Assembly (NCBI GenBank): GCA_002189035.1
Contig: CM007990.1
Coordinates: 5,146,001-5,210,000 of the forward strand
DNA: 64,000 nucleotides
Direction: 5' to 3'
Source of the DNA: Utricularia gibba
Lineage: Eukaryota > Streptophyta > Magnoliopsida > Lamiales > Lentibulariaceae
In this document: positions 2,198-16,336 of the stretch, piece by piece
Layout: the number at the start of each line of letters is the position of its first letter
How positions within the stretch are numbered: the first letter of the stretch is position 1
Notes under the pieces: generated by a model
What the model was told of the DNA's origin: nothing
The model's input: only the letters and a program-made list of their open reading frames with translations
The model's database searches: none
Made by a program: the position numbers and the translations under genes

Positions 2198-2270
2198 TTC
2201 GGTTGCCGGGACTTGAATCCGGGTCTCTCGGGTGAGAGCCGAGTATCCTAACCACCTAGACTACAACGGA
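2198..2270 (-). tRNA. tRNA-Glu (CUC), degenerate, possibly a pseudogene
   Basis: A 73-nt cloverleaf reads on the minus strand. It starts TCCGTTG, has anticodon stem CTCGG/CCGAG with loop CTCTCAC (anticodon CTC, glutamate), and ends CAACCGA plus discriminator A. It closely resembles plant nuclear tRNA-Glu but has two changes at important sites. The T arm reads GGATTC instead of GGTTC, which breaks the near-invariant 53:61 pair and alters the B box. Acceptor position 70 is C, giving a C-C mismatch at 3:70. Either change could weaken transcription or folding, so it may be a retired copy. No intron and no encoded CCA, as expected for a nuclear gene. Confidence 0.8.
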
Positions 2271-2413
2271 TTTATTAGTTGTCCATTTCAATTAAGAAAA
2301 CTGAAGGTTTTCACACAATAGCCTCATTCAAACTAATAGTTTTCGAGTTCCAGGAGTTGTACATCGGCGGGAGATGCAACTGCACGAGAGGAATCTTCAG
2401 CAACAGCAAATGA

Positions 2414-5110
2414 TCCTGCACCAAAACCATCAGCTACACAACACAGGAGTAGAGCGAGCTCCTTCTAAAGGACACTTACAGTAGCTGATCAGTCCATTAG
2501 AGTACAAGTAGGCCAGAAACACAGCCAGCAAGATGAGAATGATCGAAATCTGACAATTCAGAACAGCACCGGATCACTCTACCAGCAAACACACTTGATA
2601 CACGTACAGTGATTATTTAGAAGCCATGAGGGGAAAAAAAAAAACCTAACCGAAGATGCACTGATCTGGGGCTTGCTCTCTATGATGTAGGATTTCCTGT
2701 TGGATGCACAATACATTAAAGTCTACTCCAGTTTTATCAAGTGGGACAGCAAGATGGTTCCATACCATTGACTCATGGTTCCCGAGCTCTTGCAGTTTTC
2801 CAGAATGGATTCCAGGCGATCTCTTGTCTTGCTGGAATTGGGATCCGCCTCATCAATCTGTATGTTTGCAGAACAAGAGGTTTCCAGAGCATGATCACAA
2901 AATCTAAAAAGGCCAACTTCAATGGCTAGGAAGATTACCTTGGACTTTATAATCAGACAGAAATCATGAAAAGCCCCATAAACATCTGAAATCGTGTTGG
3001 TTCTGTAAATGATTTTAGCAGTCAAACCTACCCCAACATCAAACAAGAATAGTTAGACTTTTGCAGGAGATTAAGGATATGCAAGGAGTGAATATTGGGA
3101 CTCGGGAGCCATGAAGATCATACCGCGCCTCATTTTCACCACACCTCTGAAAACCTGAGGGTTGTTGTAGCACAAAGCTAAAGAGCCAATGGCCATGATC
3201 TGGTTGCATTAAAATGAACCACAGAGTGGGGGAGGGTAAGTGTAAGCTTATTAGTAGAATAGCTTGGGACACAGTAGTGGAATAAACGTGGTATGAGCAC
3301 CTGTGGAATTGCACAACATCGAAAGATGACTGGATCCCGCATGGCAGACATATATTTCAAGCAATCATCTACGTGCGACAGAGCATCCGCAATCATCTCA
3401 TTCAAGCACTGCACAGCCTTCACAGAGTTTTCTTCATACTTGAAGTCCTATGTTCACAAATCCAATCAAAATTCTCTCTCACAGAATACCATCTTTGTCA
3501 TTAGAGAATAACCATACCTCAAGTTTCATGGCGTACTTGCTCCAAATCTCACGAGGCCAGAACATACGTGGCTTTGGCATCTCATTGATATCCTCCAGAT
3601 AGTCTCTGATAATATTGACTTTCTGAAAGAATTAAGCAAGAAAATCCTTAACAGAAAGCCTCATTCTTCTCCCATATAGAATGACAAGCTTGTTTAACAG
3701 AAGTAGGAAGCATGGTGTACGGTTCTCTGAAATATGGGGAGGGAGAATCATAGATAATTGCCGTGTTTTGATCTTATTCATAACACTACTACCACTTCAA
3801 ACAATCCCAAAATCTAGTATCTTGTACCTGCAGAAGGACACCCATTGCATTAGAGAGAGTATCTGAAGCAAGATCTTCCCTCCCAGAAGCATGGAAAAGC
3901 CTCGACAACCCAAGTGCAATAACCCCGCACACACAGTGGCTGTACTCATTAAGATCGTCGACAGTTTCAACCTAGCAAGTACAAAAAATCTCAAACATTT
4001 CACGGCAAGCAAAGACTAGTCAGGCACGCACAAGTACATAAACGAATTTCAGAATCATGTCATTAACAAGTTTGATTATCACGTACCTCCTTGCAAATGA
4101 ATTTTGAAAATCCAGCCCCAATTCTCATGCTCATATCTTGTATTACCTCCTGATAACTGCACATAATTAAAGCCTGGACTTTAGACACCGGATATCACAA
4201 TAATAACGATTTAGCATCCAACATCAGAATGAAAAGCATCTTTCGCCCTCAACGGATCATAACTATAGCTGCACATTTTGCTCACACCTTTTATCAAGCT
4301 CCAAAAAAGCAGTCTGAACATGATAGAACTCATCCATGAGAACTTTGTACTCCTTTGTACCACCTACAAAGAGTAGATTATACTGAACACTCTCAAGACA
4401 GAAAAAAAGCCATTGCCAATATGAGGTAAGGAATCCAGAACTCACATGAAAAATGCCACTCTCGGTCGGGAAAATGACGATAAAAATCATTCAAAATAGG
4501 CACTTTCACATCTGCTTCAATGCTTGTATCGTCCTCTGTTGGAAAAGTATATAACGCGTGAAGCGTAATTAGTTCACATGCAAGATGGACTATGCAACCA
4601 TCAGGACAACGGTTTATGTCAAAGCTTGCTTCTTTAACTAACCCAAAGAAATCAACGCAAAAAACAGAGGAAATCTGTTCACAAGAGCCGAAGAAAACAA
4701 AAGCTTTAGCAGTTGGAATCCTACCAATGGTGTCGAGAGCACGGAGGACTAAATAGAACACGCACATCTGCAACAAGGAGACGTGAAGTGCGTAATGGAT
4801 CCATCACTACTTCAATTCAAATAAATGTAATGCTTGAACAAATGCTTTCTACGGTCCACCACCCGCGTCAGAAAGCACGATGCTGGCAACACACAGTCAC
4901 TAAAAATCCGATGAAATAAAAACTCACGATGTCCCGAAGATCGGAATCCAACTGCTGGATCACGAGAGCGTAACTTCTAGAAACCTTTTGGAGCATGGTG
5001 TAACAAAATCGCCAGTGTGGCTCCTTCGGGATCTGCTTCTCCACCCTCTTCATTGCCATCTTCAATTTCAGCAGCGGGTATATTTCGTCCAAATGCTGCA
5101 GCATCTCCAT
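2414..5110 (-). CDS. SQS: Squalene synthase, copy SQS-1
   Basis: Farnesyl-diphosphate farnesyltransferase (EC 2.5.1.21), which joins two farnesyl diphosphates via presqualene diphosphate to squalene, the entry to sterols and triterpenes. It is anchored in the ER. Exons: 4928-5110, 4725-4767, 4446-4535, 4288-4363, 4087-4156, 3828-3971, 3518-3622, 3301-3447, 3124-3199, 2939-3027, 2766-2857, 2651-2696, 2480-2549 and 2414-2415. The product is 410 aa, the usual plant length. Both Asp-rich motifs are present: DTIEDD at 73-78 and RDYLED at 208-213. A C-terminal hydrophobic anchor covers about 388-404. Odd point: the region around the catalytic tyrosine reads [13 protein letters not shown] (163-175) where the family has [12 protein letters not shown]; the first Tyr is kept. 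If the last short intron is not spliced, a 16-residue tail is added. Confidence 0.9.
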
Positions 5111-6475
5111 TCCTCCACTCCCCTAACCGACACTCTCGTCCCTGGAGACAAGCCGCAGAAGTATGGAAAGAAAACAGCTGTGGAAATGCCCACTCCCCAG
5201 TCATCAGCCCCCACCCCTCTGAGAATCCCATCTTCGACCATACCGACAACCTCTGAGAGTTGGTGAAATATCTAATGTCAATAAAGATATTTGCAGAATA
5301 ACTGAGTTTGATTTAATATTTGTGAACTAACTGACTTTTATAATAATATTTGAGAATTATCCAAAAAACCTTAAATAATTTAGTAATTATTTTTTAGATA
5401 CTTTAAATCACTATGTGAATTATTCAAGTGTCCAAATGAAATGCATTCCTTATGATTTTGTAATTATAATCGAATGTGATTTTTATTTTTTTATAATATT
5501 CATTTAATTTAAAAAAACATTCATAAAATTTAGTAATAATTTCAAGTATTCTACGTAAATAGTCATTATTTGTTTAGTTAAAATATTTTTATTATATGTC
5601 AAAAATATTTTATGTATTTATTTTAATATTAATTTAAAATTTTCTTACACTACGATAATATTTTTAAATTTTGAAATGATTTAGTAATTCATAAAAATAA
5701 TATTGATAATTAATTGTTATATAAGATTAGTTATGTTACGAATGTTTTTTTGAAAACTTAGTTACTTTGCAAATGTTGGAAGTAAACTTAGTTACTTTGC
5801 AAATGTTGAAATTAAACTTATTTACTTTGCAAAGTAAATTCTACTGACACAGCTATTTTGCCAATTTAGCCCAATCACTTTCCCTCCATTTTTTTAACAT
5901 ATTCAAATCCCAAGACAACACAAAAAAAAATTAATTAAGAGTACGAAAAATAAACAAATACTGATATCAAAATATTAATAACATAATATTAAATTTTTTA
6001 ATTAATTGAAAATGTTCTTTCTACTTACTCATCCTTCTTCCTGGGGATTATGCAAAAATATCTACTCTTTTCTTCTATGTTTTTTTTTTCAATCTTTTTG
6101 GTTGTTTGTCCTCTATATGTACTTTTTTTCAGGTGTTGATGTGATTGTTACAAATACATGTGTCTCCTTTTTGTGTTGTTCAACTTTGTTCCATTTTTTT
6201 CCTAGAGTGGCATGTCATGCTTCCTTGTAGAAATTAGATAATTTGGGATGCAAAGATTGAGAAAAATGATCATAAAGAATTAAATAAACTATTTTATTTT
6301 CCTACCTACAAAAACACAAGTTCACATATCAAAGGTTTTTCAAAACACAAAATATGAGAAACTCAACACCATTTAGTGTTTTTTTATTCAATACAAATGG
6401 TTTTTCGAGTTCCATGAGTTGTACATCGGCGGGAGATGCTGCTGCACGAGAGGAATCTTGAGCAGCAGCAAATGA
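5111..6475. other. Spacer between SQS-1 and SQS-2, with an insertion in the SQS-1 promoter
   Basis: 5111-5250 is the 5' flank of SQS-1 and is nearly identical to the flank of SQS-2 (9124-9263). From about 5256 to 5876 there is some 620 bp of AT-rich sequence with no counterpart upstream of SQS-2. The shared flank resumes at CACTTTCCCTCC (5877; equivalent to 9275). The rest up to about 6400 resembles the matching spacer between SQS-3 and SQS-4. No gene seen. Confidence 0.7.
5755..5836. repeat. 30-bp tandem repeat, about 2.7 copies
   Basis: The unit beginning AACTTAGTTACTTTGCAAAT recurs at 5755, 5785 and 5815 with small changes. It lies inside the AT-rich insertion upstream of SQS-1. Likely replication slippage. 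Confidence 0.75.
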
Positions 6476-9123
6476 TCCTGCAGCGAAACCATCAGCTACA
6501 CAACACAGCAGTAGAGCGAGCTCCTTCTGAAGGACACTTACAGTAACTGATCACTCCATTGGAGTAGAAGCAGGCCAGAAACACAGCCAGTAAGATGAAA
6601 ATGATCGACATCTGACAATTCAGAACAGCACCGGATCACTCTACCAGAAAAACACTTGATACACGTACAGTGATTATTTGGAAACCATGAGGGCAAAAAA
6701 AGAAAACTAACCGCAGATGCACTGATCCGGGGCTTGGTCTCTATGATGTAGGATCTCCTGTTGAATGCACATATGATTAAAGTCTACTCCAGTTTTATCA
6801 AGTGGGACAGCAAGATGGTTCCATACCATTGCCTCATGGTTCCCGAGCTCTTGCAGTTTTCCAGAATGGATTCCAGGCGATCTCTTGTCTTGCTGGAATT
6901 GGGATCCGCCTCATCAATCTGTATGTTTGCACCACGAGAGGAGCATCATCACGAAATCTAGAAAGGCCAACTTCAATGGCTAGGAAGATTACCTTGGACT
7001 TTATAATCAGAGAGAAATCATGAAAAGCCCCATAAACATCTGAAATTGTGTTGGTTCTGTGAATGACTTTAGCAGCCAGACCTACCCCAACATCAAGCAA
7101 GGATAGTCAGAAAATATGAGGCACTTTTGCAGGAGATTAAGGATATGCATGGAGTGAATATTGGGACATGGGAGCCAGGATGATCATACCGCGCCTCATT
7201 TTCACCACACCTCTGAAAACCTGAAGGTTGTTGTAGCTCAAAGCTAAAGTGCCAATGGCCATGATCTGGTTGCATTAAAATGAGAAGCACACAGTGGGGG
7301 AGGGTAAGTGTAAGCTTATTAGTAGGAGAACTTGGGACTCAATGGTAGAATAAACTTGGTATGAGCACCTGTGGAATTGCAGAAAATCGAAAGTTGGCTG
7401 GATCCCGCAAGGCAGACATACACTTCAAGCAATCATCTACGTGTGACAGAGCATCCGTAATCATGCCATTCAAGCACTGTACAGCCTTGAGAGAGTTTTC
7501 TTCATACTTGAGATCCTAAGTTCACAAAGCCAATCAAAATTCTCTTCCACAGAATACCATCTTTGTCATTAGGGAAATAACCATACCTCAAGTTTCATGG
7601 CGTACTTGCCCCAAATCTCACGAGGCCAGAACATACGTGACTTTGGTATCTCATTGATATCCTCCAGGTAGTCTTTGATAATATTGGTTTTCTGAAAGAA
7701 TTAAGCAAGAAAATTCTTAACAGAAAGCTTCTTTCTTCTCCCATATAGAATGACAAGCTTGTTTAACAAGAAGTATGATTCTCTGAAATATGGGGAGGGA
7801 GAATCATGGATAATTGCCGTGATCTGATCTTATTTATAACACTACCACTACTACTTCATACATTCCAAAAATCTAATATATTGTACCTGTAGAAACAAGC
7901 CCATAGAGTTGGATAGAGTATCTGAGGCAAGATCTTCCTTTCCAGAAGCATGGAAAAGCCTCGACAACCCAAGTCCAACAAGTCCGGCCACATAGTGGCA
8001 GTACTCATTATAATCATCTACAGTTTCAACCTAGTAAGTACAAAAAATCTCAAACATTTCATGGGTAGCAAAGGCTAGTCAGGCATACACAAGCACATAA
8101 ACAAATTTCAGAATCATGTCATTGACAAGTTTGATTATCATGTACCTCCTGGCAAATGAATTTCGCCATTCCAGCACCCATTCTCATGGTGATATCTTGT
8201 ATTACCTCCTGATAACTGCACATCATGAAAACCTGAACTTTAGACAGTGGATATCACAATAATAAAGATGTAGCATCCACTATCAGAATGGAAAGCATCT
8301 TTCACCCTCAACAGATCATAACTATAGCTGCACATTTTGCTCACACCTTTTACCAAGCTCCAAAAAAGCTGTCTGAACATGATAGAACTCGTCCATGAGA
8401 ACTTTGTACTCCTTTGTGCCACCTACAAAGAGTAGATTTTACTGAACACTCTCAAGACAGAAAATAGCCATTGACAGTATGAGGTAAGGAATCCAGAATT
8501 TTACTCACATGAAAAATGCCACTTACGGTCGGGCACATGACGATAAAAGTCATTCAAAATAGGCACTTTCACATCTGTTTCAATGCTTGTATCGTCCTCT
8601 GTTTGACAAGTAAATAACGCGGGAAGCGTAATTAGTTCACATGCAAGATGGACTATGCAACCATCAACACAACGGTTTATGTCAATTCATAAGAGCCGAA
8701 AAAACAAGAGCTTTAGGAGTTGGAATCCTACCAACAGTGTCCAGAGCACGGAGGACTAAATAGAACACGCACATCTGCAACAAGGAGACGTGAAGTACGT
8801 AATCGATCCATCACTACTTCAATTCAAATAAATGTAATACTTCAACAAATGCTTTCTACGGTCCACCACCCGCATCAGAAAGCACCATGCTGGCAACACA
8901 CCCCACACGTCACTGAAAATCCGATGAACTAAAAACTCACGGTATCCTTAAGATCGGAATCCAACTGGTGGATCACGAGAGCGAAACTTCTAGAAACCTT
9001 TTGGAGCATGGTGTAACAAAATCGCCAGTGTGGCTCCTTCGGGATCTGTTTCTCCACCCTCTTCATTGCCATCTTCAATTTCAGCAGCGGGTATAATTCG
9101 TCCAAACGCTGCAGCATCTCCAT
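6476..9123 (-). CDS. SQS: Squalene synthase, copy SQS-2
   Basis: Same enzyme as SQS-1, with an intact 410-aa frame. Exons: 8941-9123, 8732-8774, 8509-8598, 8347-8422, 8146-8215, 7887-8030, 7587-7691, 7369-7515, 7190-7265, 6993-7081, 6827-6918, 6712-6757, 6542-6611 and 6476-6477. The first Asp-rich motif is DTVEDD. The tyrosine motif is canonical, [13 protein letters not shown], unlike SQS-1 and SQS-3. The second Asp-rich motif reads IIKDYLED, where the family nearly always has IIRDYLED; this Arg-to-Lys change lies beside the diphosphate site. The hydrophobic anchor begins [15 protein letters not shown]. The terminal intron (6478-6541) again splits the stop codon. The promoter next to the ATG is shared with SQS-1. 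Intact and probably functional, subject to the Lys change. Confidence 0.9.
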
Positions 9124-11084
9124 TCCTCCACTCCCCTAACCGACACTCTCGTCCCTGGAGACAAGCCGCAGAAGTATGGAAAGAAAACAGCTGTGGAAAT
9201 GCCCACTCCCCAGTCATCAGCCCCCACCCCTCTGAGAATCCCATCTTCGACCATACAGACAACCATTCACCAGTCACTTTCCCTCCATTTTTTTAACATA
9301 TTCAAATCCCAAGACAACACAAAAAAAAAATTAATTAAGAGTACGAAAAATAAACTAAAATGTCAAATATTGATATCGAAATACTAATAACGTAATACTA
9401 AATTTTTTAATTATTAAAGATGTTCCTTCTAGTTACTCATCCTTCTTCTTGGGGATTATGCAAAAATATCTACTCTTTTCTTTTTTTTGGGTGTCTATTT
9501 GATAAGCGCCCACCTCTCTTCTAAAAAATATGAAAAATACCCATAATCTCAACACGTGTTGATAAATTACCATTGTTAATATTTTATTTAAAATTAAATA
9601 CATAAAAAATAAAATACAATGACATGTCAATGTATTGTATGGCATATTTTAAAAGTTTTTTTTATCTATGCATTTATATATATATTCATATTTATTTATT
9701 ATTTTATTACAATTTTCATAAACAATAATAAATATCATATTATTTGTATTTAAATGTATAATATTGAAAAACATTGTAATAAAATTTGATATATTATATT
9801 ATGTAATTTAGAAAATACAAAATAAATATCAATATAAATATTAAAAAGCTAAGCATAAATATTTTGAATGCTGAGTTTAATAACAATCAACGTACAACAT
9901 ATTTTGACTGTCGTCACATAATTCATAATCTATTTTGGTCATAATTTCAAAGAAAAACAACACTTACAAAAGGTTTTATAAGTAAATACATATTGTATTA
10001 CTCTTTTCAAACATAAATATTTTGATAAAATGATACAATTTTCAATATATAAAAGAGAGATCAACAATCCAAGAAATTTCCCTAAAATATTTGCATCGAT
10101 TAAAATAAGAAAAATTTTATATTCATGAAAAAATTTCCAATTTGAAATAAACTTGGTCAATCATTAACTAATAAAAATCTAAAAATCTATCACAAAAACA
10201 AAATATTCATACAAAACATCCAAAATAAAAGTCATAGCTATCTTCTATCATAAGAATGCCCAAAGTGTTTTTAGGCATCGCTTATAGCCGTAAGCAACAT
10301 CCAAAACATTTTTGGGCACCACTTATAACAGCGAATAACATTCAATGTTTAATGATAAATATTATTAAAAAATTTAATAATTTAATTCTATGTAAAATAC
10401 ATAGTTATAATATTTTGTTTTTTATTGAAAAAATATATTCGTGATATTGTTAAATATAATTTGTAAATAATTTTTTAAAATATTTTTTGAAAAATTTAAA
10501 ATAATTCAAAAAAAATTAAATATATATATATACTTTAATTAAATATATATTAACTTTTATTTTAAATCTGAAGTCTTCTTCTACTCAACTGTGGTTTCTT
10601 CCATCATTCTTTATCTTCAAAATCTACTTCTTCTTTGGGATGTATGTTAGATAAATCTTTTTATTTTTATCAACATATAAGATTTCAAATCTCATCAATT
10701 CATTCAAGATATGTAATATTTTTTTAGTTTTTATATTCCCTACATGTTCTATATTTTCTAATTCCATTAATATTCATAATAATAGATTACTTTTGAAGAT
10801 AGAATCAGACAAAAATATTTAATGCTAGAAAATTTTGTAATATCAAATAAAGAAGAAGATAAAAAATTTTTAAATAAACCACTATAATATGTTGGTCCTC
10901 ATACTTTTTTTAATTAACATGAAAAATTTTAGATGTGAATTAAGATTAACTATTCAAGCATTTTAATGTTATATACTCACCAATAACATCGTGTCAATAT
11001 TATAGATTTTTTACATTAATGAAATTGAAAAAATTAAAATGTACTTCTATAATAACAAATGTATTCTATTTAAAAATATATTCA
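9124..11084. other. Spacer between SQS-2 and SQS-3: SQS-2 promoter plus AT-rich segment
   Basis: 9124-9486 is the SQS-2 5' flank, shared with the other copies. From about 9487 to 11084 the sequence is strongly AT-rich and unrelated to the other inter-copy spacers. It directly abuts the broken 3' end of SQS-3. I see no ORF of a transposase or reverse transcriptase and no convincing terminal repeats. It may be a decayed non-autonomous element or filler captured during the rearrangement that truncated SQS-3. Confidence 0.6.
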
Positions 11085-12993
11085 TCATGAAAATATACTA
11101 AGTTCCAGGAGTTGTACATCATGAAATTGAAAATTATAGATCTGCTTGCATTAAAATGAGAAGCACACGTGTAAGCTTATTGGTAGGATAGCTTGGGACA
11201 CAGTAGTGGAATAAACGTGGTATGAGCACCTGTGGAATTGCACAACATCGAAAGATGACTGGATCCCGCACGGCAGACATATACTTCAAGCAATCATCTA
11301 CATGTGACAGAGCATCCGTAATCATCTCATTCAAGCACTGCACAGCCTTCACAGAGTTTTCTTCATACTTGAAGTCCTACGTTCACAGAGCCAATCAAAA
11401 TTCTCTCCCACAGAATACCATCTTTGTCATTAGAGAATAACCATACCTCAAGTTTCATGGCGTACTTGCTCCAAATCTCACGAGGCCAGAACATACGTGG
11501 CTTTGGCATCTCATTGATATCCTCCAGATAGTCTCTGATAATATTGACTTTCTGAAAGAATTAAGCAAGAAAATCCTTAACAGAAAGCGTCATTCTTCTC
11601 CCACATAGAATGACAAGCTTGTTTAACAGAAGTAGGAAGCATGGTGTACGGTTCTCTGAAATATGGGGAGGGAGAATCATAGATAATTGCCGTGTTTTGA
11701 TCTTATTCATAACACTACTACCACTTCAAACAATCCCAAAATCTAGTATCTTGTACCTGCAGAAAGACACCCATTGCATTAGAGAGAGTATCTGAAGCAA
11801 GATCTTCCCTCCCAGAAGCATGGAAAAGCCTCGACAACCCAAGTGCAACAAGCCCGGACGCATAGTGGCTGTACTCATTTAGATCGTCCACAGTTTCAAT
11901 CTATGAAGTACAAATAATCTCAAACATTTCATGGGTAGCAAAGGCTAGTCAGGCATACACAAGCACATAAACAAATTTCAGAATCATGGCATTAACAAGT
12001 TTGATTATCATGTACCTCCTGGCAAATGAATTTTGCCATTCCAGCCCCACTTCTCATGGTTACATCTTGTATTACCTCCTGAGATCTGCGCATAATGAAT
12101 GCATCAACTTTAGAAAGTGGATACCACAAACAGGCGATTATAACTATAGCTGCACATTTTGCTCACACCTTTTATCAAGCTCCAAAAAAGCAGTCTGAAC
12201 ATGATAGAACTTGTCCATGAGAACTTTGAACTCCTTTGTACCACCTACAAAGAGTAGATTTTACTGAACACTCTCAAGACAGAAAATAGCCGTTGCCAAA
12301 ATGAGGTAAGGAATCCAGAACTCACATGAAAAGTGCCACTCACGGTCGGGCACATGGCGATAAAAATCATTCAAAATAGGCACTTTCACATCTGTTTCAA
12401 TGCTTGTATCGTCCTCTGTTGGACAAGTAAATAACGCGGGAAGCATAATTAAATAGCATGCAAAATGGACTATGCAACCATCAAGACAACGGTTTATGTC
12501 AAAACATGCTTCTTTAACTAACCCAAAGAAATTAACACCAGAAACAGAGGAAATCAATCCATAAGAGCTGAAAAAAAGAAAAGCTTTAGGGGAATCCTAC
12601 CAACAGTGTCCAAAGCACGGAGGACTAAATAGAACACACAAAGCTGCAACAAGGAGACATGAAGTGCTTAATCGATCCATCACTATTTCAATTCAAATAA
12701 ATGTAAAATTTTCATCAAATGCTTTCTACAGTCCACCACCCGCATCAGAAAGCACCATGCTGGCAACACACCCCACACGTCACTGAAAATCCGATGAACT
12801 GAAAACTCACGGTATCCCGAAGATCGGAATCCAACTGGTGGATCACGAGAGCGCAACTTCTAGAAACCTTTTGGAGCATGGTGTAACAAAACCGCCAGTG
12901 TGGCTCCTTGGGGATCTGCTTCTCCACCCTCTTCATTTCCATCTTCAGTTTCAGCAGCGGGTATAATTCGTCCAAATGCTGCAGCATCCCCAT
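11085..12993 (-). pseudogene. SQS: Squalene synthase, copy SQS-3, 3'-truncated
   Basis: Exons 1-8 are intact and in frame (286 codons): 12811-12993, 12601-12643, 12326-12415, 12169-12244, 12016-12085, 11757-11900, 11447-11551 and 11230-11376. Both Asp-rich motifs are kept (DTVEDD, RDYLED). Exons 9-13, encoding the C-terminal helices and membrane anchor, are missing. The start of exon 9 is joined, through about 20 bp of new sequence, to a piece of the 3' UTR (11101-11120) that in SQS-1 lies at 2349-2368. If the exon 9 acceptor is still used, 18 novel residues follow to a TGA at 11085-11087, giving a soluble product of about 304 aa. Sequence type matches SQS-1 ([26 protein letters not shown]). 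Probably non-functional as a synthase. Confidence 0.85.
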
Positions 12994-13622
12994 TCCTCCA
13001 CTCCCCTAACCGACACTCTCGTCCCTGGAGACAAGCCGCTAGAAGCATGGAAAGAAAAACAGGTGCAGAAATGCCCACTGCCGAGTCATCAGCCCCCACC
13101 CCCAGAGAATCCTATCTTCAACCACACCGACGAATGGCGACGTGACTTCCCTCCATTTCTTTGACATATTCAAATCCCAAGACACAAAAAAAAAACTATT
13201 GAATAAAAGTACGAAAAATACTAATCACATAATATTATATGAAAATGTTTCTTCTAGTTCCTTATCCTTCTTCTTCGGGAGTATGCCAAAATATCTACTA
13301 TTTTTTTTATTATTTTTTCAATCTTTTTGGTTGTTTGTCTTTATATGCACTTCCATATCTTCCTTTTTTCAGATTTTGATGTGATTGTTCATGTACAAAA
13401 ACATGTATCTCCTCTTTGTCTTGTTCAACTTTATTCCATTTTTTTCCTAGTGTTGCATGTCATGGTTCCTTGCAGGAATCGAATTGATAATTTACAAAAA
13501 CATAAGTTTACATATCAAATGCTTTTCAAAACACAAAATATGAGAAATTCAACACCATTTAGTGTTTTTTTATTCAATACAAATAGTTTCTCGCGAGAGG
13601 AATCTTCTGCAGCAGCAAATGA
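12994..13622. other. Spacer between SQS-3 and SQS-4
   Basis: Contains the diverged promoter of SQS-3 and the 3' UTR of SQS-4. Segments match the SQS-1/SQS-2 spacer (for example the CTTCCCTCCATTT block near 13146 and the ATACTTCT-rich stretch near 13240). No gene seen. Confidence 0.6.
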
Positions 13623-16336
13623 TCCTGCAGCAAAAACATCAGCTACACAACACAGGAGTGGAGCGAGCTCCTTCTGAAAGAGTCAAACTTACAATAACTG
13701 ATCACTCCATTAGAGTACAAGTAGGCCAGAAACACCGCCAGCAAGATGAGAATGATCGAAACCTGACAATTCAGAACGACACCGAATCACTCTACCAGCA
13801 AACACACTTGATACATGTACAGTGATTATTTGGAAGCCATAAAAACTAACCGAAGATGCACTGATCTGGGGCTTGCTCTCTATGATGTAGGATCTCCTGT
13901 TGGATGCACATATGATTAAAGTTTACTCCAGTTTTATCAAATGGGACAGCAAGATGGTTCCATACCATTGCCTCATGGTTCCCGAGCTCTTGCAGTTTTC
14001 CAGAATGGATTCCAGGCGATCTTTTGTCTTGATTGAATTGGGATCCGCCTCATCAACCTGTATGTTAGCAGAAGAGGTTTCCAGAGCATCATCACAAAAT
14101 CTACAAAGGCCAACTTCAATGGCTAGGAAGATTACCTTGGACTTTAGAACCAGAGAGAAATCATGAAACGCCCCATAAACATCTGAAATCGTGTTGGTTC
14201 TGTAAATGATTTTAGCAGTCAGACCTACCCCAACATCAAACAAGAATAGTTAGAAATAAGAGTCACTTTTAAGGATATGAATGGAGTGAATGTTGGGACA
14301 TGGGAGTCATGATGATCATACCGCGCCTCATTTTCACCACACCTCTGAAAACCTGAAGGTTGTTGTAGCACAAAGCTAAAGTACCAATGGCCATGATCTG
14401 GTTGCATTAGAATGAGAAGCACACGTAAGCTCATCAGTAGGAGAGCTTGGGACACAGTTGTAGAATAAACGTGGTATGAGCACCTGTGGAATTGCACAAA
14501 ATCGAAAGTTGGCTGGATCCCGCAAGGCAGACATATACTTCAAGCAATCATCTACATGTGACAGAGCATTCGTAATCATGTCATTCAAGCACTGCACAGC
14601 CTTGACAGAGTTTTCTTCATACTTGAGATCCTACTTTCAGAAAGCCAAATACAATCAAAATTCTCTTCCACAGAATACCATCTTTGTCATTCGAGAAAAA
14701 ACCATACCTCGAGTTTCACGGCATACTTGCCCCAAATCTCACGAGGCCAGAACATACGTGACTTTGGTATCTCATTGATATCCTCCAGGTAGTCTCTGAT
14801 AATATTGGCTTTCTGAAAGAATTAAGCAAGAAAATCCTTAACAGAAAGCTTCTTTCTTCTCCCATATAGAATGACAAGCTTGTTTAACAAGTATGATTCT
14901 CTGAAATATGGGGAGGGAGAATCATGGATAATTGCCGTGATCTGATCTTATTTATAACACTACCACTACTACTTCATACATTCCTAAAATCTAATATATT
15001 GTACCTGTAGAAACAAACCCATAGAGTTGGATAGAGTATCTGAGGCAAGATCTTCCTTTCCAGAAGCATGGAAAAGCCTCGACAACCCAAGTCCAACAAG
15101 TCCGGCCACATAGTGGCAGTACTCATTGTAATCATCTACAGTTTCAACCTAGGAAGTACAAAAAATCTCAAGCATTTCATGGCTAGCAAAGACTAGTCAG
15201 GCATACACAAGCAGATAAACAAATTTCAGAATCATGTCACTAACAAGTTTGATTATCATGTACCTCCTGGCAAATGAATTTCGCCATTCCAGCACCCATT
15301 CTCATGGTGATATCTTGGATTACCTCCTGATAACTGCACGAAATGAAAGCCTGGACTTCAGACTGTGGGTATCACATAAATAACGATTTAGCATCCACCA
15401 TCAGAATGAAAAGCATCTTTCACCCTCAACGGATTATAACTTTAGCTGCACATTTTGCTCACACCTTTTACCAAGCCCCAAAAAAGCAGTCTGAACATGA
15501 TAGAACTCGTCCATGAGAACTTTGTACTCCTTTGTACCACCTACAAGAGAATAAGAGAGTAGATTTTACTGAACACTCTCAAGACAGAAAATAGCCATTG
15601 CCAATATGAGGTAAGGAATCCAGAACTCACATGAAAAATGCCACTCACGGTCGGCCACATGATGATAAAAATCAATCAAAATAGGCACTTTCACATCCGT
15701 TTCAATGCTTGTATCGTCCTCTATTGGACAAGTAAACAACGAGGGAAGCGTAATTAGCTCAAATGCATTCGGTGCTGAAATTTCAGCACGCAACACCAAA
15801 AAAAAAAAATGATGAGTCCTCTCATAAAAACAAGATGGACTATCCAACGATGAATCGCAAGGGTTTATACCAAAGTTTGCTTCTTTAACCATCCCAAAAA
15901 ATACCCCATTCCGGCCGTAGGGCTTCAGAAATCAATACATAAGAGCAGAAAAAACAAAAGCTTTAGGAGTTGGAATCCTACCAACAGTGTCCAACGCACG
16001 GAGGACTAAATAGAACACGCACACCTGCAACACGGAGACGTAAAGTGCTCAATCGATCCATCACCATTTCAATTCAAATAAATTTACTGTCGCATCAAAT
16101 GATTTCCACGGTAAACCACCCGCATCGAAAAGCACAACAAAACAAAAACTCACGGCATCACGAAGATCGGAATCCAGCTGCTGGATCACGAGAGCGAAAC
16201 TTCTAGAAACCTTATGGAGCATGGTGTAACAAAACCGCCATTGTGGCTCCTTCGGGATCTGCTTCTCCACGCTCTTCATTGCCGTCTTCAGTCTCAGCAT
16301 CGGGTATAATTCGTCCAAATGCTGCAGCATCCCCAT
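13623..16336 (-). CDS. SQS: Squalene synthase, copy SQS-4
   Basis: Most upstream copy and the one closest to the family consensus. Intact 410-aa frame. Exons: 16154-16336, 15982-16024, 15631-15720, 15465-15540, 15264-15333, 15005-15148, 14708-14812, 14484-14630, 14322-14397, 14136-14224, 13966-14057, 13851-13896, 13693-13762 and 13623-13624. Motifs are [19 protein letters not shown] and IIRDYLED. The C-terminal anchor reads [18 protein letters not shown]. Exon 2 starts [13 protein letters not shown], as in most plant enzymes. An indel in the terminal 68-nt intron would shift the read-through tail relative to SQS-1 and SQS-2, while the spliced C-terminus is unchanged. This is the best candidate for the ancestral housekeeping gene. 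Confidence 0.92.

Follow-up and report, generated by a model that had tools for sequence, protein, structure and literature searches.

The window analysed here, a 64,000-nucleotide stretch of the Utricularia gibba genome, carries four squalene synthase (SQS) loci on its minus strand, arranged head to tail between 2.3 and 16.3 kb (Table 1). Gene models come from a spliced alignment of plant SQS to the minus strand. Copies 1, 2 and 4 each comprise 13 exons, all introns being GT-AG and all frames open, with the frame of copy 1 running from an ATG at 5110 through the C-terminal membrane segment, and copy 3 consists of exons 1 to 8 only. Every copy scores above the curated whole-protein cutoff of TIGR01559 (squalene synthase; 286.75 bits), with the full-length genes ranking copy 4, copy 2 and then copy 1, and every copy encodes Tyr171 and the Asp-rich motifs DTxEDD and DYLED. 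The C-terminal domain and membrane anchor are present in copies 1, 2 and 4 and deleted in copy 3. A sequence-only reading had described four SQS genes in tandem at this position; our models and whole-assembly searches bear out the four loci and their order, but one of them is incomplete, so that the array amounts to three full-length genes and one truncated locus.

Table 1. Features of the SQS array, with positions as numbered in the window.
Feature	Position	Strand	Basis
SQS copy 1, A type	2496..5110	-	13 exons, all GT-AG, no frameshift; TIGR01559 459 bits
SQS copy 2, B type in exons 5-7	6558..9123	-	13 exons, open; TIGR01559 486 bits
SQS copy 3, A type, 3'-truncated pseudogene candidate	11224..12993	-	exons 1-8; TIGR01559 368 bits, partial
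SQS copy 4, B type	13709..16336	-	13 exons, open; TIGR01559 510 bits
Copy 3 deletion junction	11101..11145	-	comparison with copy 1 3'UTR and intron 8
Conversion tract, copy 1 with copy 3 (approx.)	3479..3919	-	mid exon 6 to intron 7
Copy 3 partner of A tract (approx.)	11408..11848	-	pairwise scan
Conversion tract, copy 2 with copy 4 (approx.)	7715..8009	-	exon 6 to intron 6
Copy 4 partner of B tract (approx.)	14836..15127	-	pairwise scan
Multi-copy dispersed repeat upstream of copy 1	5256..5870	.	14 further genome matches (15 including its own)
A+T-rich multi-copy dispersed repeat, spacer 2	9484..11098	.	72 further genome matches

These are the only SQS loci found in the genome: the DNA of copy 2 and the protein of copy 4, each used as a query against the 100.09 Mb assembly, returned the four copies and no fifth. 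Other matches to the SQS_PSY domain lie on contigs C1, C4 and C413, and since the SQS protein search misses them, they are probably phytoene-synthase-like. A tRNA-Glu(CTC) gene sits at the edge of the array (2198-2270, minus strand), and a J-domain protein can be read from the sequence upstream, at about 920.

Copy 3 keeps the donor site of exon 8 and has lost exons 9 to 13. At the junction we found a 20-nt remnant of the 3'UTR (AGTTCCAGGAGTTGTACATC), followed by a short A+T-rich filler and then the exon 9/intron 8 edge. Reading through into the intron adds 31 residues before a stop, the TIGR01559 match ends at profile position 260 of 337, and the C-terminal helices and anchor are absent, making copy 3 a candidate 3'-truncated pseudogene. 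Its truncated 3' end is abutted by the 1.6-kb repeat of spacer 2, which has 73 matches in the genome, its own included, in both orientations; repeats like it also match C413:1962784-1969923, inside a cluster of oxidosqualene cyclase genes. The second repeat, of about 615 bp, lies roughly 150 bp upstream of the copy 1 ATG and is missing from the flank of copy 2, where the corresponding empty site can be seen at 9245-9300. This element is likely a non-autonomous transposon.

The SQS copies are gene-conversion mosaics, overall about 8 to 11% divergent from one another. The alignment contains 82 four-way informative sites, and the relationships that they support switch along the gene. From the 5' flank through intron 4, 19 of 28 sites set copies 1 and 2 against copies 3 and 4, eight favor 14|23 and one favors 13|24; from exon 5 onward, 51 of 54 sites favor 13|24. 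The best single break falls at the intron 4/exon 5 boundary (maximum chi-square, 65.6), and none of 20,000 permutations was as extreme. The sequence-only reading had assigned copies 1 and 3 to one protein type (A) and copies 2 and 4 to another (B); the motifs that it quoted from exons 6 to 8 agree with our gene models and residue table, and the switch in type lies far past chance. A single branching order along all exons and flanks, which that reading had named as evidence against mosaicism, was not seen.

Within the region of the switch, pairwise scans identified short, recent tracts of about 300 to 450 bp in exons 6 and 7. Copies 1 and 3 show three differences in 444 alignment columns, and copies 2 and 4 show two substitutions and one gap in approximately 300. 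For each pair, none of 5,000 permutations matched the observed tract at scan widths of either 300 or 400 bp, and outside the tracts divergence within the pairs rises to roughly 4 to 10% on both sides. Given that the shared tracts include introns, they point to exchange of DNA and not to selection at the protein level alone. The earlier proposal of conversion or unequal crossing over is thus supported by both the informative sites and the tract scans. The description of copies 1 and 3 as one variant holds for their shared type, but not as uniform identity: the two differ at 9 of 144 positions of exon 6, and their near-identity is confined to the stretch between mid exon 6 and intron 7.

Exon 6 also showed an excess of synonymous change between A and B types. 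In this exon (copy 1, 3828-3971) about 11 of 36 synonymous sites differ, compared to 16 of 189 sites in intron 6 (P = 0.0008). A divergent donor that has since been lost is a possible source, and a search of the genome for such a donor sequence found none.

The flanks and spacers bear on how the array arose. Directly upstream of the ATG, copy 1 differs from copy 2 by 0%, with copy 3 at 6% and copy 4 at 29 to 31%, and the 5' halves group copies 1 and 2, together with 3, against copy 4. The flanks of copies 1 and 2 had been called almost identical; they are in fact identical over approximately 96 aligned bp at the start codon, but copy 1 is then interrupted by its repeat insertion. Spacers 1 and 2 are 89.7% identical, compared to 74% for spacers 1 and 3 (plus an 80-bp stretch at 94%) and 68% for spacers 2 and 3. 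At the other end of the genes, it is copies 2 and 4 whose 3' flanks diverge least (6.7%, versus 19 to 25%), and therefore no single history can fit the whole region. Stepwise growth of the array, with local conversions later, would fit this pattern of flanks and spacers.

An alternative, proposed by the sequence-only reading and concerned with the history of the array and not with its function, is a clean duplication of an AB pair to ABAB, followed by conversion of the copy 1 and 2 flanks. The types do alternate along the array, and the closeness of the 3' flanks of copies 2 and 4 is what such an event would leave behind. A duplicated two-gene unit should, however, also pair spacer 1 with spacer 3 and copies 1 and 2 throughout with copies 3 and 4, and both the spacers and the 5' halves disagree: the closest spacers are 1 and 2, the 5' halves favor 12|34, and the likeness of copy 1 to 3 and of copy 2 to 4 peaks in the short tracts, with more divergence on either side. 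We therefore reject block duplication as the sole explanation, and consider it unlikely even with a subsequent conversion of the flanks.

To relate the two types to enzyme function, residues were numbered by alignment to human SQS from the PDB, with the offset checked at Tyr171. At positions where the human and Arabidopsis enzymes agree, copies 1 and 3 share the replacements C172S, G180A, S206A, L209V, T214V and F288C. Copy 1 further carries F54Y, Y174C, A176C and V179I, copy 3 carries F54C, V175A and A176S, and copy 2 carries Arg218Lys (R218K), Tyr276Cys (Y276C) and Cys289Ser (C289S). Published work places Tyr276 and Phe288 in the central cavity, with Phe54 walling the pocket; Arg218 likely stabilizes the leaving pyrophosphate, and mutants of Phe288 lose the second half-reaction (PMC10378455). 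Because Phe288, kept in copies 2 and 4, is replaced by Cys in copies 1 and 3, these two copies appear to be SQS-like by descent only. Out of 131 positions shared by human and Arabidopsis SQS, counts that rest partly on an Arabidopsis SQS1 protein used as a guide, copy 4 retains 119, copy 2 112, copy 3 103 and copy 1 100 (copy 1 versus copy 4, Fisher P = 0.002). Neither the human sequence nor the TIGR01559 scores depend on this guide, and both agree with it.

Purifying selection has been lost in exons 5 and 6 of the A type. Over 164 sites, we counted approximately 16 nonsynonymous differences within the A pair compared to 0 within the B pair (P = 2 × 10^-5), while synonymous change was equal in the two pairs, suggesting that constraint is relaxed or altered on A and strong on B. 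The A type also appears to be the derived one.

We consider it most probable, at roughly two chances in three, that unequal crossing over and conversion shaped the array, with copy 4 serving as the housekeeping SQS while copy 2 drifts and the non-canonical A copies degenerate. In this scenario the tandem array, which holds all detectable SQS, would have grown through unequal crossing over, as the homologous spacers that recur between its genes suggest, and short ectopic conversions between copies would then have turned the genes into mosaics, with copies 1 and 3 exchanging the A-type segment and copies 2 and 4 the B-type one. Copy 4, which has the most canonical residues, is likely the housekeeping gene, and would encode a standard enzyme converting farnesyl diphosphate to squalene for sterols. 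Copy 2 is intact and would be accumulating changes in its active site. Copies 1 and 3 have diverged in active-site exons 5 to 8, where Phe288 is among the conserved positions lost, and their catalysis is probably impaired; copy 3 would be dead through its deletion, and copy 1 may at best carry out the first half-reaction, to presqualene diphosphate. In this scheme the copy number, gene structures, mosaicism, tracts, truncation, residue losses and the loss of purifying selection in A-type exons 5 and 6 are observed; what each copy catalyzes, and in which order the events took place, we infer.

Copy 1 is no old pseudogene: it retains all of its splice sites and both Asp-rich motifs, and its exons are free of indels. 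Exonic indels number 0 in every copy, compared to 25 distinct gap intervals in the introns, implying that the frame of copy 1 was kept until recently, or still is. Given that its frame, splice sites and Asp motifs are intact, copy 1 may still make a useful product.

The sequence-only reading had further suggested specialization for triterpene supply, in which several active SQS copies would feed oxidosqualene cyclases in particular tissues. Three full-length open reading frames, two squalene epoxidase loci and the presence of cyclase genes in tandem arrays at other genomic sites are consistent with this. The cyclase clusters lie at C413:1916591-1973752 (at least four loci) and C304:2813263-2833253 (at least three), with further loci on C237 and C375, and these arrays may bring with them a demand for squalene. 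Against such a role, however, conserved active-site residues are lost in copies 1 to 3, Phe288 among them in the A type, copy 3 is truncated, and a repeat is inserted close upstream of copy 1. Ten long open reading frames scanned elsewhere in the window encode a DUF4005 protein, an MCM protein, an IBR protein, a DEAD helicase, two kinases, an SBP factor, a GH17 glucanase and two unmatched products, and no terpenoid-related gene was recognized among them. At the level of titles and abstracts, the literature on Utricularia and squalene or triterpenes held nothing useful. Extra triterpene supply is thus poorly supported and in our judgment rather improbable, and ordinary decay of duplicates is the more likely account of the array.

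We give a similarly small chance to neofunctionalization, in which A-type copy 1 works with an altered product or a partial reaction (for example, to presqualene diphosphate), and selection keeps A and B apart while the ends of the genes are homogenized. Such a history has a precedent in Botryococcus, where duplicates of SQS changed function (PMC4823828), and it would accord with the intact reading frame of copy 1 and with the concentration of substitutions in active-site exons 5 to 8, where Ks between A and B is 0.23 to 0.26, compared to 0.05 (copies 1 and 2) and 0.06 (copies 1 and 4) in exons 9 to 13. On the other hand, the Ka/Ks of the A copies in exons 5 to 8 is 0.93, about the neutral ratio, and one of the two A copies is truncated. 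At F54, I146, M150, A176 and L280, copies 1 and 3 have changed to different residues, a pattern more in keeping with relaxed constraint than with a new function common to both. An old island of divergence kept by selection over exons 5 to 8 is likewise a weak candidate, as A-B divergence is alike in introns 5 to 7 and 9 to 12 (9% versus 7%). A more specific proposal, by which copy 1 would encode an active SQS-like enzyme with a remodeled pocket (F288C, G180A, C172S, A176C and L209V) that stops at presqualene diphosphate or makes another C30 product in this carnivorous plant, with selection keeping the active-site exons distinct as the rest of the array is homogenized, is very doubtful. Least credible is an assembly artefact in which haplotypes or chimeric reads were joined as tandem copies, since the copies are well diverged overall, with distinct spacers and insertions, all lie within one multi-Mb contig, and the region has no second copy elsewhere in the assembly.

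Returning to decay within a converting array, the locus is real, cleanly mosaic and of a known kind, made of tandem duplicates, conversion and degenerating members. It closely parallels the SQS1 (At4g34640) and SQS2 (At4g34650) genes of Arabidopsis, where a canonical and a diverged SQS likewise lie in tandem. The change in SQS2 is reportedly Phe287 to Ser, which corresponds to human position 288. SQS2 is the inactive member of the tandem pair (PMC4996051). The U. gibba array differs in having four copies, Phe changed to Cys, conversion mosaics and one truncated member. In Botryococcus braunii, the SQS duplicates SSL-1, SSL-2, SSL-3 and LOS have changed function with their Asp motifs intact (PMC4823828); new products were measured for those enzymes, whereas the A-type pattern, known from sequence, resembles relaxed constraint. 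Tandem multigene arrays with ectopic conversion show the same short tracts, local switches in topology and divergence on both sides, and beside them nothing here is unusual except the gene concerned. The array nevertheless offers a compact natural case, in a very small plant genome, of an essential enzyme, usually low in copy number, whose tandem copies have had their active-site exons shuffled by conversion. For annotation, or for squalene engineering from this plant, copy 4 should be used and not copies 1 to 3.

One observation outside the array concerns mitochondrial COX1 (C515:183547-185854), which encodes two contiguous cysteines (LLLLCCSALVEVG), presumably at the place of the double cysteine of Utricularia and Genlisea. 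Two contiguous cysteines have been described in the COX of Utricularia and some Genlisea (PMC3141634). The gene is split by an intron with a reading frame for a LAGLIDADG-like endonuclease.
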